Below are positions 1,529 to 8,577 of a DNA stretch of 41,649 nt, piece by piece (position 1 is the stretch's first letter; each line of letters starts with the position of its first letter). A model generated the notes under the pieces. That model made no database searches, was not told the origin of the DNA, and saw only the letters and a program-made list of their open reading frames with translations. Source of the stretch: Myxococcales bacterium (GTDB lineage: Bacteria > Myxococcota_A > UBA9160 > UBA4427); the NCBI GenBank assembly GCA_012959865.1, contig DUCH01000062.1:1-41649 (forward strand). The letters run 5' to 3'. Position numbers and translations under genes: made by a program.

Positions 1529-2431
1529 TCAGTCCGACAATGCCTTCAAGATCAAGCCCATCTCATCGCCGATACTGCTGGGAATGATGTAGTCACCCGG
1601 TTCATGAATCTGGGCAAAATTGGCCTGAATGTCCTCGGCGGTCGGGGTCGCGCCCTTCTCCGTCCATCCGGGCGCCAGGCCGATGAAAATCCGCGCAAAG
1701 CGGCCGCCGCCGACCGAATACACCGCGTGGCTTTCTTCGTTGGCTTCGGAGCAGAGATAGATGACCAGCGGAGTCACATTTTCGGGTTCCAAGCGATCCG
1801 CCAAAGCACCCAGCAGTTCTTCGGTCAGGCGCGTCTTCGCAATCGGGGCGATCACGTTGGACTTGATATTGTTCTTCGCGCCTTCGACAGCCAGTACGTT
1901 CGAGAGCCCCACCAACCCCATTTTGGCGGCCCCGTAATTGCTTTGGCCAAAATTCCCGAAAACCCCCGCCGCCGAAGTGGTGTGGACGAAGCGTCCGTAA
2001 TTTCGCTCCTTCATGGCGCGGAAGGCGGGTTGAGAAACGTAGAAAGCGCCCTTGAGATGGACGTCGATAACGATCTCAAGCTCTTCGGGCGAGAGTTTGA
2101 CAAAGGACTTGTCGCGCAGGATACCCGCATTGTTGACCACGATGTCCACCTGGCCAAAATTGTCCAGTGCGGTCTGCACGATGGCCTCGCCCCCTTCGGG
2201 CGTCGACACGGAATCGTAATTGGCTACCGCTGTGCCGCCGGCTTCCTCGATTTCCTTGACCACCTGGTCCGCCATGCTGCTGCTGCCGCCGGTGCCATCG
2301 GAGGCGCCCCCGAGATCATTGACCACCACCTTGGCGCCTCGGCGGGCAAACTCGACCGCATAGGTGCGCCCAAGGCCGCCGCCAGCGCCAGTTACCACCG
2401 CCACGCGATCGTCGAATTGAATGTCGCTCAT
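1529..2431 (-). CDS. Short-chain dehydrogenase/reductase, MFE-2 (3R)-hydroxyacyl-CoA dehydrogenase-like
   Basis: This is a 300-residue classical-type SDR. It shows the cofactor motif TGAGGGLG (residues 14-21), VVNDLGG after beta-2 (typical of the MFE-2/17-beta-HSD4 group), NNAG (100-103) and the triad Ser153, Tyr166 and Lys170 in SNYGAAK. These proteins oxidise (3R)-hydroxyacyl-CoA with NAD(P). The C-terminal extension past residue 250 resembles the linker region of MFE-2. A GGGGAG ribosome-binding site precedes the ATG at 2431. It lies 173 bp upstream of the hydratase-2 gene on the same strand, so the pair probably forms a two-protein (R)-specific beta-oxidation module. Confidence 0.9.
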   Translation of the reverse strand: MSDIQFDDRVAVVTGAGGGLGRTYAVEFARRGAKVVVNDLGGASDGTGGSSSMADQVVKEIEEAGGTAVANYDSVSTPEGGEAIVQTALDNFGQVDIVVNNAGILRDKSFVKLSPEELEIVIDVHLKGAFYVSQPAFRAMKERNYGRFVHTTSAAGVFGNFGQSNYGAAKMGLVGLSNVLAVEGAKNNIKSNVIAPIAKTRLTEELLGALADRLEPENVTPLVIYLCSEANEESHAVYSVGGGRFARIFIGLAPGWTEKGATPTAEDIQANFAQIHEPGDYIIPSSIGDEMGLILKALSD

Positions 2432-2718: not shown

Positions 2719-3735
2719 GTGCCGGAGATCAAACGTCTGGCCCACCCGCAGATCCACGACCTCAGTCTCGACTTCGAAGCGCGCATGACGGACTCGCCCC
2801 TGGCCTCGTTGGTTCGTGGGGCGCCGACGACCCTTCAGGTCAATCTCACCAAACGGTGCAACCTGGCCTGCCATCACTGCCACGTGGAGTCGGGACCCAA
2901 GCGAACCGAGCAGCTCTCCCGGGCGGGCTGCCAACGGATCCTGGACCTCCTCGCCCTCAATCCGCAGGTAGAGACTCTGGACCTCACCGGGGGGGCGCCG
3001 GAACTCCACGAGGGCTTTCGCGACATGGTGCGCGGCGCCCGCAGCCTGGGGCGGCGCGTGATCGATCGCTGCAACCTTACGGTCCTCTTCGAGCCCGGAC
3101 AGGAGCAGACTGCCGAGTTTCTGGCCAAGCACGGCGTGGAAATCGTCGCGTCCCTTCCGTGCTACCGCCGGGAGAACGTCGAGCAACAACGCGGCCGTGG
3201 CGTATTTCCCCTTAGCATCGAGGCACTCCAGGCCCTCAACACCCTGGGGTATGGGGGCGGCGACCCGGAGCACACCCTGAATCTCGTCTACAACCCGGTG
3301 GGCGCCGTCCTTCCCCCGGAACAAGTGGAACTCGAAGCCGAGTACCGCCAACGGCTGAATGACGACTTCGGCATTCGTTTCGACCGACTGCTGACCCTGA
3401 CCAACATGCCCATCAAGCGATTCGCCCGAAGCCTGGAACGCCGGGGCGAGTTGCGCGCGTACATGTCCCTGCTGGTCACCCACTTCAACCCGGCGACCCT
3501 ACCCGGCCTCATGTGCCGCAGCCTGATCAGCGTCGACCACTGCGGCAATTTATTCGACTGCGATTTCAATCAGGCGTTGGGTTTACCCGTACCCGGCCCG
3601 GCCCTGGATATTTGGAGCGTCGACGATTTGACCCATTTCGAGGGTCGACGGATCCAAACCGCGCCCCATTGTTTCGGTTGCACGGCGGGCTCGGGCTCGG
3701 GTTGCAGCGGTGCCCTGATCCAGAGCAGTGGGTGA
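2719..3735 (+). CDS. arsS: ArsS-like radical SAM protein (arsenosugar biosynthesis family)
   Basis: This 338-residue radical SAM enzyme starts at GTG 2719. The 4Fe-4S motif CNLACHHC (Cys47, Cys51, Cys54) is followed by the family hallmarks LDLTGGAPELH, IDRCNLTVLFEPGQE, NVEQQRGRGVF, LNLVYNPVGA, TNMPIKRFA and the Cys-rich C-terminus (LFDCDFNQ, HCFGCTAGSGSGCSG). Characterised ArsS enzymes use SAM and trivalent dimethylated arsenic to make a dimethylarsinoyl-deoxyadenosine precursor of arsenosugars. No arsM methyltransferase is visible in the window, so the arsenic role is inferred from family membership only. It heads a tight plus-strand operon with a TVP38 protein, a flavin disulfide reductase and a sulfotransferase. 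The 287-bp gap upstream separates it from the divergent SDR gene. Confidence 0.88.
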   Translation: MPEIKRLAHPQIHDLSLDFEARMTDSPLASLVRGAPTTLQVNLTKRCNLACHHCHVESGPKRTEQLSRAGCQRILDLLALNPQVETLDLTGGAPELHEGFRDMVRGARSLGRRVIDRCNLTVLFEPGQEQTAEFLAKHGVEIVASLPCYRRENVEQQRGRGVFPLSIEALQALNTLGYGGGDPEHTLNLVYNPVGAVLPPEQVELEAEYRQRLNDDFGIRFDRLLTLTNMPIKRFARSLERRGELRAYMSLLVTHFNPATLPGLMCRSLISVDHCGNLFDCDFNQALGLPVPGPALDIWSVDDLTHFEGRRIQTAPHCFGCTAGSGSGCSGALIQSSG

Positions 3736-3760
3736 GCAAACTCGGTACCATTCGTCCCCG

Positions 3761-4534
3761 ATGACCTCTCTTCAACAATCCAATCCGCCGGGGTCATCCC
3801 CGAGCAAACCACCCCAACGCCCATTCCTCCGGCTTCGAGGGATTTTGATGGGCTTGGCGGCCGCAGTCGCGCTCTTCTGGGTCGCCCGAATGGGTGGCGA
3901 CTCCATTCCCGCCGCAGTGAACTGGCTGGAGAGCCTCGGCGACTGGGGACCTTTGTTCTTCATCGGCCTCTACGCGCTGGCCACTGTGCTCTTCATCCCC
4001 GGCTCGATTCTCACCCTGGCCGGAGGCGCCCTCTTCGGCCTGGCGAGCGGCGTCGTCTACGTCTTCGTCGCGGCCCTCCTGGGCTCCTCCCTGGCATTCC
4101 TGATCGCCCGCTACGGGGCGCGGGCATGGATCGAGGAAAGACTCGGTTCGAGCCCACGCTTCGATGCGCTGGATCGCGCTATCGGCCGGGAGGGGCTCAA
4201 GATAACCTTCCTACTGCGCCTCTCCCCGGCCTTCCCTTTCAGTTTCCTCAATTATGCCCTGGGGCTCACTCGAGTCAGCCTGCGCGACTACCTGATCGCG
4301 TCCCTGGGCATGCTTCCCGCAACGTTTCTCTACGTCTACTCGGGCCATGTCATCGGCGACGTCGCCCGCTTGGCGGGCGGAGCGAACCCGGAGCGCGGCG
4401 TGGGCGATTTTCTCGTGCTGGCCCTGGGCCTCGGCGCCACCATTGCGGTCACCGCCGTCGTGACGCGGACCGCGCGCCGGGCGCTCGCGGAAGCCACCGA
4501 ACTTCACACGCTGACCGACCGGGAGTCGCAATAG
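3761..4534 (+). CDS. TVP38/TMEM64 (DedA-superfamily) membrane protein
   Basis: This polytopic inner-membrane protein has about five or six hydrophobic segments and the VTT/SNARE-associated domain. Visible hallmarks are LFIPGSILTLAGGALFG, the re-entrant-type motif FLLRLSPAFPFSFLNYALG, and SLRDYLIASLGMLPATFLYV. Members of this superfamily act as lipid scramblases or transporters. Genes of this type often sit beside mercuric-reductase-like flavoproteins, as here. I place the start at ATG 3761 (257 residues); an in-frame GTG at 3728 would overlap the ArsS stop by 8 bases and give 268 residues. Neither has a strong ribosome-binding site. Translational coupling to the upstream gene is likely. Confidence 0.88.
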   Translation: MTSLQQSNPPGSSPSKPPQRPFLRLRGILMGLAAAVALFWVARMGGDSIPAAVNWLESLGDWGPLFFIGLYALATVLFIPGSILTLAGGALFGLASGVVYVFVAALLGSSLAFLIARYGARAWIEERLGSSPRFDALDRAIGREGLKITFLLRLSPAFPFSFLNYALGLTRVSLRDYLIASLGMLPATFLYVYSGHVIGDVARLAGGANPERGVGDFLVLALGLGATIAVTAVVTRTARRALAEATELHTLTDRESQ

Positions 4535-4538
4535 AGTC

Positions 4539-6059
4539 ATGCTGCGCGAAAACGATTCCGACCAACGGCTTCTCGACCTCGTCCGTCCCTCGGGATGGCG
4601 CAATCCCGTGCCCGCCGGCCGATACAACCTGGTGGTGATCGGGGCCGGCACCGCAGGACTCGTGACCGCCGCCGGGGCCGCCGGTCTCGGCGCCCGAGTC
4701 GCGCTCATTGAGCGGGCCGAACTCGGAGGCGACTGCCTGAACGTCGGCTGCGTCCCCTCCAAGAGTCTGCTGCGAAGCGCGCATGCCCGGGCGGAGATTC
4801 GCGAAGCCGAGCCGCTCGGCATCCGCATGGAAGGCGAAGCCTCCGTTGATTTCCGCGCGGTGATGGAGCGAATGCGCGCCGTACGCGCCCGCATCGCGCC
4901 CAACGACTCGGCCGCACGATTCAGCGAAGAACTCGGCGTCGATGTCTTTTTCGGCGAGGGGCGCTTCGTGGGTCGGCGCCACGTCGAGGTGGCGGGGCAA
5001 CGGCTCGCTTTCCGCAAGGCCGTCATCGCCACCGGCGCCCGGGCCGCTGTGCCCCCCATCCCCGGCCTGAAGGAGGCGGGCTACCTCACTAACGAAAACG
5101 TCTTCGACTTGGAGTCGCTGCCGAATCGATTACTGGTCCTCGGCGGAGGGCCCCTGGGATGCGAGCTTGCCCAAGCCTTCGGACGCATGGGTGCCCGAGT
5201 TACCCTAGTCGAGTTGGCCGAACAGTTTCTCGCGCGTGAAGATCCCGAAGCAGCAGCGCTCCTCCTCGATCAGCTGGGCCGGGACGGCGTCGATGTCCGA
5301 CTGGCGACGTCGCTTGTGCGCGTCGAAGGAACTCCCGGCGAAGTCAAAACAGCCACACTCGGAAAATCCGGCCGCGAGGAAGCGCTCGCCTGCGATCAAA
5401 TCCTGGTGGCCGTCGGTCGCACGCCCAACCTTGAAGGCCTCGGACTTGAGGCCGCGGGCGTCCGTTCTCATCCCAGAACGGGCATCGAGATCGACGACTA
5501 CTTTCGAACCCACAATCCGCACGTCTACGCCGCGGGCGATGTTTGCATGGAACTCAAGTTCACTCACGCGGCCGACTTCGCGGCCCGAGCGGTGATCCAG
5601 AATGCCCTCTTCGCGGTCGGCCCCTTGGGTCGCAAAAAACTCAGCGCCTTGACGATTCCGTGGTGCACCTATACCGATCCCGAGATTGCCCATCTTGGGC
5701 TGAGCGAAGCCGAGGCCAGCGCAAAGGGAACTCCGGTGGAAGCGTTCGTCCGACCCTTCAGCGAGGTCGACCGCGCCATCGCCGATGGCCGGGACCGGGG
5801 CTTCGTGAAAATTCTCGTCAAGCCGGGCAGCGACCGCATTCTGGGGGCCACGGTGGTGGGCTACGGGGCCAGCGACCTGATTGGTGAGATCGGTGTCGCC
5901 CGGGCGGCGGGCCTCGGACTCGGTGCCCTGGCCGGGGTCATCCATCCGTACCCCACGCGTTCGGAAGCGATTCGCCAGCTGGGAGACGCCTTCAATCGCA
6001 CCCGGGTAACCCCCACTGTCAAGCGGATCCTGGCGGGCTACTTGGCCTGGCAACGCTAG
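4539..6059 (+). CDS. FAD-dependent pyridine nucleotide-disulfide oxidoreductase (mercuric reductase/Lpd-like)
   Basis: The 506-residue class I flavin disulfide reductase has an FAD Rossmann motif VVIGAGTAGLV, redox cysteines Cys66 and Cys71 in GGDCLNVGCVPSK, an NAD(P) motif LVLGGGPLGCELAQAFG, the second FAD motif VYAAGDV, and a C-terminal dimerisation domain with HPYPTRSEA. It lacks the N-terminal HMA domain and the C-terminal vicinal cysteines of true MerA, so mercury reduction cannot be assumed. About 30 residues precede the Rossmann fold. The ATG lies 4 bases after the TVP38 stop. In this operon it could supply electrons to a low-molecular-weight disulfide or keep a thiol or metalloid reduced, which is inference. 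Lipoamide dehydrogenase is less likely because no E2 or lipoyl genes are nearby. Confidence 0.88.
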   Translation: MLRENDSDQRLLDLVRPSGWRNPVPAGRYNLVVIGAGTAGLVTAAGAAGLGARVALIERAELGGDCLNVGCVPSKSLLRSAHARAEIREAEPLGIRMEGEASVDFRAVMERMRAVRARIAPNDSAARFSEELGVDVFFGEGRFVGRRHVEVAGQRLAFRKAVIATGARAAVPPIPGLKEAGYLTNENVFDLESLPNRLLVLGGGPLGCELAQAFGRMGARVTLVELAEQFLAREDPEAAALLLDQLGRDGVDVRLATSLVRVEGTPGEVKTATLGKSGREEALACDQILVAVGRTPNLEGLGLEAAGVRSHPRTGIEIDDYFRTHNPHVYAAGDVCMELKFTHAADFAARAVIQNALFAVGPLGRKKLSALTIPWCTYTDPEIAHLGLSEAEASAKGTPVEAFVRPFSEVDRAIADGRDRGFVKILVKPGSDRILGATVVGYGASDLIGEIGVARAAGLGLGALAGVIHPYPTRSEAIRQLGDAFNRTRVTPTVKRILAGYLAWQR

Positions 6060-6062
6060 AGA

Positions 6063-6623
6063 ATGCCGAAACCCGTCACCGTGGTGAGCGGCATTCCGCG
6101 CTCGGGTACATCATTGATGATGAACATTCTGCAAGCGGCCGGGCTGCCGATCCTCAGCGATGGGAAGCGCGAACCCGACGCTTCGAATCCCCGGGGCTAC
6201 TTCGAACTCGATGCCGTCAAGCGAAGCCGGCGAGATACGGGCTGGTTGACGGCTGCACCCGGTGGCGCGGTCAAGATCATCCACTCACTGCTCGATTGTC
6301 TCCCCGATGACTACACGTACCGCGTGATCCTCATGCGACGGCCCATTGCGGCGGTGGTGGCCTCCCAGAACCGGATGCTCGACCTGCAGGGAAAGCACCA
6401 ACCCGGGCTCGGGGACGAGCGCCTGAAGGCGATCCTGCTGTCGCAACTGGAAGAGAGTAGAAAACTGCTTGCCGCCAAGCCGTGCTTCGACTGGATCGAA
6501 ATCGATTACCCCAGCCTGATCGACCAACCGCAGCCCGCCCTGGAAGCCCTGGGCGATTTTCTCGGGTTGTCCCTTCAGATCGAGAAGTTGATCGGGTGCA
6601 TCGATCCAACACTCCAGCATTGA
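6063..6623 (+). CDS. Small sulfotransferase-family protein
   Basis: This is a 186-residue P-loop protein. The N-terminal VVSGIPRSGTSLMMNIL matches the 5'-phosphosulfate-binding loop of PAPS-dependent sulfotransferases. A second conserved segment, VILMRRPIAAVVASQNRML, corresponds to the strand and helix carrying the 3'-phosphate-binding Arg/Ser region. It is short for the family (usually 250 or more residues) but ends cleanly, so it may be a minimal member rather than a truncated one. The start codon lies 3 bases after the flavoprotein stop, so co-transcription is near certain. The acceptor substrate is unknown; it could be a lipid, a sugar or a metalloid-sugar product of the upstream genes (speculative). 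Confidence 0.75.
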   Translation: MPKPVTVVSGIPRSGTSLMMNILQAAGLPILSDGKREPDASNPRGYFELDAVKRSRRDTGWLTAAPGGAVKIIHSLLDCLPDDYTYRVILMRRPIAAVVASQNRMLDLQGKHQPGLGDERLKAILLSQLEESRKLLAAKPCFDWIEIDYPSLIDQPQPALEALGDFLGLSLQIEKLIGCIDPTLQH

Positions 6624-6687
6624 GCCCATCGTTTCTGGCAAACCATGGCGAGTCTCGATCCCACAGGAAGAAAAGCGAAAGGAAAAA

Positions 6688-7137
6688 ATGAATCGCACCC
6701 ATTTCGTTGCGCGAGGCCCGAGGAATTCCTCCATCCGGCTCATTGTATTGTTCGCCGGGGGCCTCACCCTGGCATTTGCTTCACTCGGGGGATGCACCTC
6801 TGCGGAGAACTCCGGAGTTCGATCCGTTCCCCAAGAAGAAATCGTGCACGGGCTCAGCCTTGGGAGAACGCCGATTCTACTCGATGTTCGCAGCCGGGAA
6901 GAGTTCGCCGGGGGGCATCTTCCGGGCGCCGTCCTGATACCCGTCGATGAACTTCCCGGGCGCTTGGAGGAACTCCGTCAGCTCGGCGCGGAACGCGAGA
7001 TCGTGGTGTACTGCGAAAGCGGACGGCGCGCGCTCCGAGCCGCCGAGGCCTTGGTCTCCGAAGGCTTCGGCCGGGTTGGGCACCTCGAAGGGGACATGTC
7101 GGGCTGGCGGACGAGCGGTCTGCCCGTCAAGCGATAA
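6688..7137 (+). CDS. Rhodanese-domain lipoprotein
   Basis: The 149-residue protein has a type II signal sequence (hydrophobic stretch, then LGGC with lipid-acceptor Cys36), so it is probably anchored on the periplasmic side of a membrane. Residues 48-145 form a single rhodanese domain with the entry motif LLDVRSREEFAGGHLPGA and the active loop YCESGRRA, with catalytic Cys109 in a six-residue sulfurtransferase-type loop. The start has a good AAAGGA ribosome-binding site. It follows the sulfotransferase by 64 bases and is probably in the same transcript. The likely role is transfer or sensing of sulfane sulfur at the envelope. The loop is not the CX5R type of rhodanese-fold arsenate reductases. 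Confidence 0.87.
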   Translation: MNRTHFVARGPRNSSIRLIVLFAGGLTLAFASLGGCTSAENSGVRSVPQEEIVHGLSLGRTPILLDVRSREEFAGGHLPGAVLIPVDELPGRLEELRQLGAEREIVVYCESGRRALRAAEALVSEGFGRVGHLEGDMSGWRTSGLPVKR

Positions 7138-7323: not shown

Positions 7324-7875
7324 ATGCCGAGCCTCCTTCGCTTCCTCGGAATCCCTCGACAATCGGGTTCGGACCCCAGCAACCAGGCCGACGAAGCCCT
7401 GCACCCCATCGCGTCCGCCCTTGATGCTCTCGACCCCGATCGGGCTCGCTTCTTCGCGGCCTTCGCCTACGTGCTGGCGCGAGTTGCGGGAGCCGATCTC
7501 CAGATGGATCGTTCCGAAACCGATTCCATGGCCGAGACCCTCGCCAAGTTGACGGGCATCCCCGAGGACGAGGCGCGCCTGGTGGTGGAAATAGCGTGTT
7601 CCCGGATGGACGATCTCGAGGCTACCCACAATTACCTGGTGACTCGCGAGTTCGGGCGCCTGAGCGATACCCCGGAGAAAATCCAACTCCTCGAATGTCT
7701 CTACGCCGTGGCTGCGGCCGACGGCGTCATCAGCGGAGACGAGACCAACGAAGTGGCGAGCATCGCCGAAGAGATCGGACTCACCCGCGCCGATGCGACT
7801 GCCTTGCGGTCGCGCTTCCGCGACAAGTTGGCAGAATTTCAGAAGCTTAAGAGCGAGGGCAAGGGCAAGAACTAA
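7324..7875 (+). CDS. TerB-domain (tellurite-resistance-like) protein
   Basis: This is a 183-residue acidic helical protein. Residues 38-165 carry a TerB/DjlA-like domain with two acidic half-repeats: FAYVLARVAGADLQMDRSE, and LLECLYAVAAADGVISGDE followed by EVASIAEEIGL. The DxxxxxxE positions match the metal-coordinating pattern of TerB proteins. There is no signal peptide, so it is probably cytosolic. A 186-bp gap separates it from the rhodanese gene, so it may belong to the same transcription unit or start its own. Such stand-alone proteins are common and rarely linked experimentally to tellurite. Its stop lies only 18 bases from the stop of the convergent ATPase gene. Confidence 0.8.
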   Translation: MPSLLRFLGIPRQSGSDPSNQADEALHPIASALDALDPDRARFFAAFAYVLARVAGADLQMDRSETDSMAETLAKLTGIPEDEARLVVEIACSRMDDLEATHNYLVTREFGRLSDTPEKIQLLECLYAVAAADGVISGDETNEVASIAEEIGLTRADATALRSRFRDKLAEFQKLKSEGKGKN

Positions 7876-7893: not shown

Positions 7894-8577
7894 CTAGCTT
7901 CGAACCAGCAGCAATGTGCGCGGATCGAGGCCCACGTGCAGATCCTGAAGATCCTCGTTCTCATGGTCCTTGATTGCCCGCAGGGTAATTTCATCGCCCT
8001 TGGCCTCGAGGGTGACGATTACGTTGATCAGATCTTCGCAACCCGAGAGCGCGGCCAGGGGGTCGCCTTCTGACTCGGCATCCAAGGTGAACCAGACTTC
8101 CGCTGCAAGATCGGCGACCAGGGACCGAACGCCAGCCAGGTCGTCCCGCGTCACTTGAGAGCCCTCAAGGCCATCGATCACGATCAGGGTCGGGCGGACG
8201 CCTGCTTCGGCCTCCACCTTGAGCGAATCGCTAAGCTTGCTCGCGCTGAAACCATCCCCTCGGTAGGCGCGAATGCGGCGGTGGTCATCGATCTCCGCAT
8301 GAATCTCTGTGGGGTTGTCCATATGCGTGCTCGCTGCCAAAGCGAGGTAGACGGTGTCGTAGTAGTCCCGTACGTGGGAAACCGTCTGATTCATGGCCAC
8401 ATGGAGAACGGTGCCCCCTCGCAGCAACTCGTCGATGGCCACACCCACCAGAAAGGAAGTTTTTCCGACTCCGTGGGCAGCCACACAGGCCCCGAGGTTT
8501 CCAACGCCCAGTCCGCCGTGCAGGCCCTTCTCGAACAATCGCATGGGACTGCGCGCATTAATGAATTTTCTGTACAT
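7894..8577 (-). CDS. RecA/KaiC-like P-loop ATPase of unknown function, downstream of EF-G
   Basis: The 227-residue single-domain ATPase has a Walker A-like loop AAHGVGKTSF near residues 33-42, a Walker B strand TLIVIDGLEG, and a beta-rich C-terminus ending LDPRTLLLVRS. The conserved-looking N-terminus (MYRKFINARSPMRLFEK) and GGLGVGNLG before the P-loop recall the RecA/RadA/KaiC layout (short N-terminal clamp, then core). It starts 27 bases after the stop of the EF-G gene on the same strand, with a purine-rich AGAGAGGG ribosome-binding site, so the two are almost certainly co-transcribed. I believe similar proteins of unknown function occur in other delta-lineage genomes. A role in translation, or regulation by the EF-G neighbour, is speculation. 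Confidence 0.75.
   Translation of the reverse strand: MYRKFINARSPMRLFEKGLHGGLGVGNLGACVAAHGVGKTSFLVGVAIDELLRGGTVLHVAMNQTVSHVRDYYDTVYLALAASTHMDNPTEIHAEIDDHRRIRAYRGDGFSASKLSDSLKVEAEAGVRPTLIVIDGLEGSQVTRDDLAGVRSLVADLAAEVWFTLDAESEGDPLAALSGCEDLINVIVTLEAKGDEITLRAIKDHENEDLQDLHVGLDPRTLLLVRS

Follow-up and report, generated by a model that had tools for sequence, protein, structure and literature searches.

A putative arsenosugar-type ArsS operon with a TVP38-reductase pair in a myxococcal genus without recognisable ArsM

What might a cell do with an ArsS-type radical SAM enzyme encoded next to a membrane protein, a flavin reductase, a sulfotransferase and a rhodanese lipoprotein? These genes lie together in the window analysed here, a stretch of 41,649 nt (contig DUCH01000062.1, assembly GCA_012959865.1) from a myxococcal metagenome-assembled genome (MAG; 5.08 Mb, 88% complete); its closest public contigs carry a Myxococcota label. 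A sequence-only reading had proposed that the five genes make, sulfate and flip an arsenosugar-type product. Our comparisons uphold part of that proposal, in that the cluster is real and conserved and its ArsS/arsenic link is stronger than supposed, and remove sulfation from it. Nearly all of the genomes compared are incomplete MAGs in which contamination is possible; gene calls in the compared regions were codon-scored and made in this analysis, and family names are annotations.

A conserved cluster with a full-family ArsS

The five-gene block was confirmed on the forward strand with the positions and spacing first described, and the ORF coordinates match. It begins with arsS (2719..3735, +, GTG start), followed by the gene for a TVP38/TMEM64-type (VTT/DedA) membrane protein (3728..4534, +), whose first 8 nt, counted from a GTG start, are also the last 8 of arsS. 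Were translation to begin at the in-frame ATG at 3761, the two genes would be 25 nt apart; the true start (GTG 3728, ATG 3761 or further downstream) is uncertain. A FAD pyridine-nucleotide disulfide oxidoreductase (FDR; 4539..6059, +) follows after 4 nt, a small sulfotransferase-family protein (6063..6623, +) after a further 3 nt, and a single-domain rhodanese that is a probable lipoprotein (6688..7137, +) after 64 nt. Synteny places a conserved left border at an SDR gene (1529..2431, -) and a right border, conserved in the order, at a TerB-like gene (7324..7875, +; TerB, 63.7 bits), to the right of which lies a KaiC-like ATPase gene (7894-8577, -). The TerB-like gene is the border of the block and stands outside its proposed function. 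The complete arrangement, from the SDR gene through ArsS, TVP38, FDR, sulfotransferase, rhodanese and TerB to the KaiC-like gene, with the two outermost genes on the opposite strand, is kept in 4/4 other genomes of the genus. In the regions fetched from across the order, the syntenic block has the same borders and strands, with ArsS-TVP38-FDR, then extra genes, then TerB between them, and the TerB-like and KaiC-like genes adjoin TVP38-FDR throughout the order. Nothing that we found contradicts the earlier statement that the window contains no arsM, arsR or arsC; the library scan covered the proteins encoded at the window's left end.

The window ArsS, which carries Radical_SAM and DUF3641 domains in a domain scan, scores 414 bits against TIGR04167 (cut-off 300) and is a full member of this family. 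Of 68 positions at which 34 ArsM-linked ArsS proteins are at least 95% invariant, it keeps the residue at 67, the sole exception being S328G, and it has all nine invariant cysteines (C47, C51, C54, C148, C266, C281, C318, C321 and C329), including the CX3CX2C cluster motif at C47/C51/C54 and a Cys-rich C-terminal region. Adenosylation of arsenic is the step that ArsS carries out in oxo-arsenosugar biosynthesis (Cheng et al. 2021, as cited in a passage of PMC12159101); TIGR04167 also includes selenoproteins (PMC13188914). Our ArsS tree, a quick search with SH-aLRT support only, indicates essentially vertical inheritance within the order and does not place the window ArsS in a clade with a proven unrelated substrate; the ArsS of a full arsenosugar cassette from Rhodanobacter nests within the clade of the window's order (SH-aLRT 99 in a 56-row set). 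Measured against the bacterial arsenosugar cassette (ArsM, ArsS/TIGR04167, TIGR04282/TIGR04283 transferases and the TIGR04169 AhpD-like protein), the window has an equivalog of ArsS with every conserved cysteine, and homologous loci in its relatives hold ArsM and the transferases, whereas the window itself lacks both and has TVP38-FDR, the sulfotransferase and the rhodanese in their place.

The TVP38-reductase pair as a recurrent neighbour of ArsS

The membrane protein matches VTT_dom at 106 bits, and its partner FDR, with Pyr_redox_2 and Pyr_redox_dim domains, reaches 737 bits against NF004991 (cut-off 620). Mercuric reductase is the nearest solved chain to FDR (E 1.2e-77), with lipoamide dehydrogenases also among the nearest, and the two enzymes share the CxxxxC redox pair, which in FDR lies in the motif GGDCLNVGC. 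FDR nevertheless falls under the MerA cut-off (TIGR02053, 388 bits against 454) and has HPYPTRSE close to its C-terminus; its six cysteines (66, 71, 208, 285, 336 and 376) include none past 376, so that the C-terminal Cys pair of MerA is absent. We therefore rejected FDR as a MerA, in agreement with its first description as MerA-like without the metal motifs, and infer a dithiol/disulfide role for it. According to a published survey (PMC10127716), this type of reductase is the commonest fusion partner of COG0398 DedA proteins, and the same two domains adjoin each other in the window and in the relatives examined, although in the window they are separate genes with ArsS in front.

Within the order, 58 of 80 genomes have an ArsS at E<=1e-40, which passes the TIGR04167 cut-off in 57. 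FDR occurs in 69/80 genomes, including 16 of the 22 that lack ArsS; almost every region examined has TVP38 next to it, also in ArsS-lacking genomes, and mostly at the same syntenic site. In genus g12, ArsS remains at this site and the TVP38-FDR pair is elsewhere. Since the two genes are adjacent with or without ArsS, the pair is a unit of its own, and we rejected the idea that it is specific to ArsS; given its retention in 16/22 ArsS-lacking genomes, arsenosugar synthesis is not its principal role. Sigma/anti-sigma-like genes (families f20/f14) lie nearby in many genomes.

The pair nevertheless recurs beside ArsS well beyond this order. Among 80 public ArsS loci, examined with models built in this analysis, TVP38 was found within 7 kb of ArsS in 38, FDR in 26 and both in 22; the same distance held a TIGR04282-type transferase in 36, a TIGR04283-type transferase in 29, ArsM in 19, an AhpD-like protein in 13, a DUF3047 protein in 10 and a rhodanese in 8. 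We estimate the chance expectation at about 0.3% (one-copy gene, 15-kb stretch, 5-Mb genome), and the ArsS-TVP38-FDR linkage is well beyond chance. The 22 loci come from six phyla (Myxococcota, Pseudomonadota, Omnitrophota, Planctomycetota, Thermodesulfobacteriota and Nitrospirota; two loci are unlabelled) and show the orders ArsS-TVP38-FDR, FDR-TVP38-ArsS and TVP38-FDR-ArsS, so repeated assembly of this combination is likely. Gene-order conservation reaches past very close relatives for these three genes; the sulfotransferase adjoins FDR only in genera g1, g10 and g11. Open PMC papers yielded nothing tying the TVP38-reductase pair to ArsS, and nothing linking other parts of the cluster (TVP38 + radical SAM, TIGR04167, DUF3641, arsenosugar + sulfotransferase).

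A single ORF in Omnitrophota (L056, 8947-10959) fuses ArsS to an ArsM-like methyltransferase, and another (L176, 1416-3137, oriented) spans ArsS (profile positions 2-243) and TVP38, as either a true fusion or a deletion/frameshift. A DUF3047 protein repeatedly lies beside ArsS or TVP38-FDR in several phyla (L154, L157-L159, L161, L177, L021, L067 and others).

Arsenic genes, missing ArsM and the sulfotransferase

The sequence-only reading had traced the metalloid link to ArsS by itself. That link is now supported also by the ArsS tree and by homologous loci, where ArsM, TIGR04282/TIGR04283 and Pst/PHO4 genes are neighbours. An ArsM of about 390 aa (family f10) lies directly 5' of ArsS in many relatives, related genera included, and ArsC-family genes are also among ArsS neighbours in the order. 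Across order genomes, this linked-type ArsM accompanies ArsS in 29/58 and occurs without it in 2/22 (p=7e-4, phylogeny ignored). NCBIfam names the neighbouring families arsenosugar transferases (TIGR04283, TIGR04282) and an arsenosugar-associated AhpD-like protein (TIGR04169). ArsM or such a glycosyltransferase is also present in 30 of the 42 public ArsS loci that have TVP38 or FDR, and several loci with both TVP38 and FDR have ArsM and both "arsenosugar" glycosyltransferases as well, as in Rhodanobacter thiooxydans (L018), with the order TVP38-FDR-ArsS-ArsM-GT-GT. Phosphate transport genes form part of some loci: a PHO4 transporter adjoins in L132 and L134, and PstS and Pst permease genes do so in L150. 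In L132 (4258-10133, ArsS on +) the order is ArsM-PHO4 transporter-ArsS-TVP38-FDR, which puts an uptake gene for phosphate/arsenate inside an arsenosugar cluster; in L150 (11-5065, ArsS on +) ArsM and ArsS are followed by the phosphate ABC transporter genes.

The window's own genome encodes ArsC and Acr3, both over cut-off, and therefore handles inorganic arsenic; near-duplicate Acr3 loci on contigs C268 and C161 (L304, L305) are probably strain redundancy in the MAG. It also has a TIGR04283 match (194.5 bits, cut-off 182) on contig C181 (L208). We considered whether it marks another arsenosugar locus and rejected this: the flanking genes encode SMC, a PurM-like protein and two ABC transporters, a set conserved throughout the order and non-specific, and its presence in the order genomes examined makes the arsenosugar name doubtful there. 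TIGR04282 is absent from this genome and present in 3/4 other genomes of the genus, and neither family lies beside the operon. The arsenosugar names of both are annotations, and TIGR04283 is not significantly associated with ArsS in this order.

The expected first enzyme is missing. The earlier reading had called for arsM to be sought elsewhere in the genome, and it was found there neither by NF008823 nor with linked-type ArsM queries. None of the five genus genomes (80-94% complete) has an ArsM at E<=1e-30 by NF008823 or a match to linked-type queries at E<=1e-10, and we estimate the chance of missing it in all five through incompleteness at about 1e-5 (product of missing fractions). The best match in the window's own genome, at 76 bits, was rejected as an ordinary methyltransferase without the ArsM-type Cys motif, and no hidden arsM was found on this genome's Acr3 and ArsC contigs. 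The genus appears to have lost the enzyme that methylates arsenic, normally required first, and with no recognisable ArsM complete de novo synthesis is unlikely. At most 24 of the 58 ArsS genomes in the order are without a convincing ArsM (neither linked-type nor general ArsM over cut-off), an upper figure, as a few of these genomes have sub-cut-off or truncated ArsM-like matches. In the ArsS tree the ArsM-less genera form no clade of their own but are dispersed among genera that have ArsM.

The sulfotransferase has a different history. The protein matches Sulfotransfer_3 (35.3 bits, cut-off 27), with a PRSGTS P-loop and an RPxxxxxxS motif of the 3'-phosphate, PAPS-binding type, whose RP...V.AS part is conserved in a 7-member alignment. 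Small sulfotransferases are near-universal in the order (72/80 genomes, usually single-copy), but they are distributed independently of ArsS (p=0.43), which is present in 7 of the 8 genomes lacking a sulfotransferase. Outside g1, g10 and g11 their contexts vary, and in g10 the gene stays with TVP38-FDR while ArsS is at another place. This distribution and these contexts leave arsenosugar sulfation unsupported as a core function, and we rejected it as a core step; the sulfotransferase seems a later, unrelated arrival, a lineage-specific neighbour that may have a genus-specific role in the cluster. The rhodanese (67.8 bits; active loop CESGRR) is conserved in the genus and recurs near some other ArsS genes, as counted above. 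We regard both proteins as lineage-level additions whose arsenic link is unproven.

Competing readings of the cluster

Our data slightly favour, at little better than even confidence, a divergent arsenosugar-type ArsS operon in which ArsS adenosylates a methylated arsenical acquired externally, TVP38-FDR is its membrane/redox partner, and the sulfotransferase and rhodanese are lineage additions. ArsS would join the SAM-derived 5'-deoxyadenosyl radical to a trivalent methylated arsenical, yielding a deoxyadenosyl-arsenical, chemistry suggested here by family membership and residue conservation. TVP38-FDR is an ancient two-gene unit that has repeatedly joined ArsS and may supply a membrane-associated thiol/redox function, for example by maintaining arsenic, or the thiols of ArsS partners, in the reduced state. 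Since the genus is without ArsM, the arsenical is probably taken up from outside and not made in the cell. This same loss counts against the proposal, as it leaves no known arsenical source in the cell and ArsS may use another substrate. The pair's presence in ArsS-lacking genomes also weighs against it, as do an ArsS/ArsM p-value that ignores phylogeny and transferase names that are annotations, TIGR04283 not being significantly tied to ArsS in the order.

A serious though rather unlikely alternative is that the locus mainly serves membrane/thiol stress through TVP38 and the reductase, with ArsS placed there by shared metalloid/oxidative stress regulation and acting separately. The fixed pairing with or without ArsS, mostly at one site, the separation in g12, the frequent DedA-reductase fusions (PMC10127716) and the nearby sigma/anti-sigma-like genes are all consistent with this, but linkage recurring in several gene orders and six phyla, often with ArsM and glycosyltransferases, argues against it. 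Improbable, in our judgement, is a non-arsenic substrate (e.g. a selenium or sulfur compound) for ArsS in ArsM-less genomes, with the rhodanese as sulfur/selenium donor: the number of such genomes, the selenoproteins within TIGR04167 (PMC13188914) and the rhodaneses near public ArsS genes point that way, yet the window ArsS keeps nearly all ArsM-linked invariant residues, and ArsM-less genera are interspersed with ArsM-bearing ones. Sulfated arsenosugars and arsenosugar lipids do occur, and together with the tight spacing in the genus and the retained PAPS-type motifs they speak for the original make-sulfate-flip proposal; we now consider it very improbable given a sulfotransferase that ignores ArsS across the order, neighbours FDR in only three genera and is parted from ArsS in one of them, in a genus without ArsM.

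An extension of the favoured externally supplied ArsS operon, which we put forward tentatively and hold to be doubtful, is an arsenosugar pathway split across a community: many members of the order would keep ArsS and its membrane-redox partners, having lost methylation, and would use methylated arsenic from their neighbours, with TVP38-FDR admitting or reducing it.

To our knowledge, genes of arsenosugar synthesis other than those for ArsM and ArsS are largely unassigned. The ArsS-TVP38-FDR linkage, recurring in six phyla with several arrangements of the genes, marks TVP38 and FDR as candidate components, and Rhodanobacter thiooxydans is a culturable host with the full cassette. The occurrence of ArsS without ArsM raises a testable question, namely whether these bacteria scavenge methylated arsenic.
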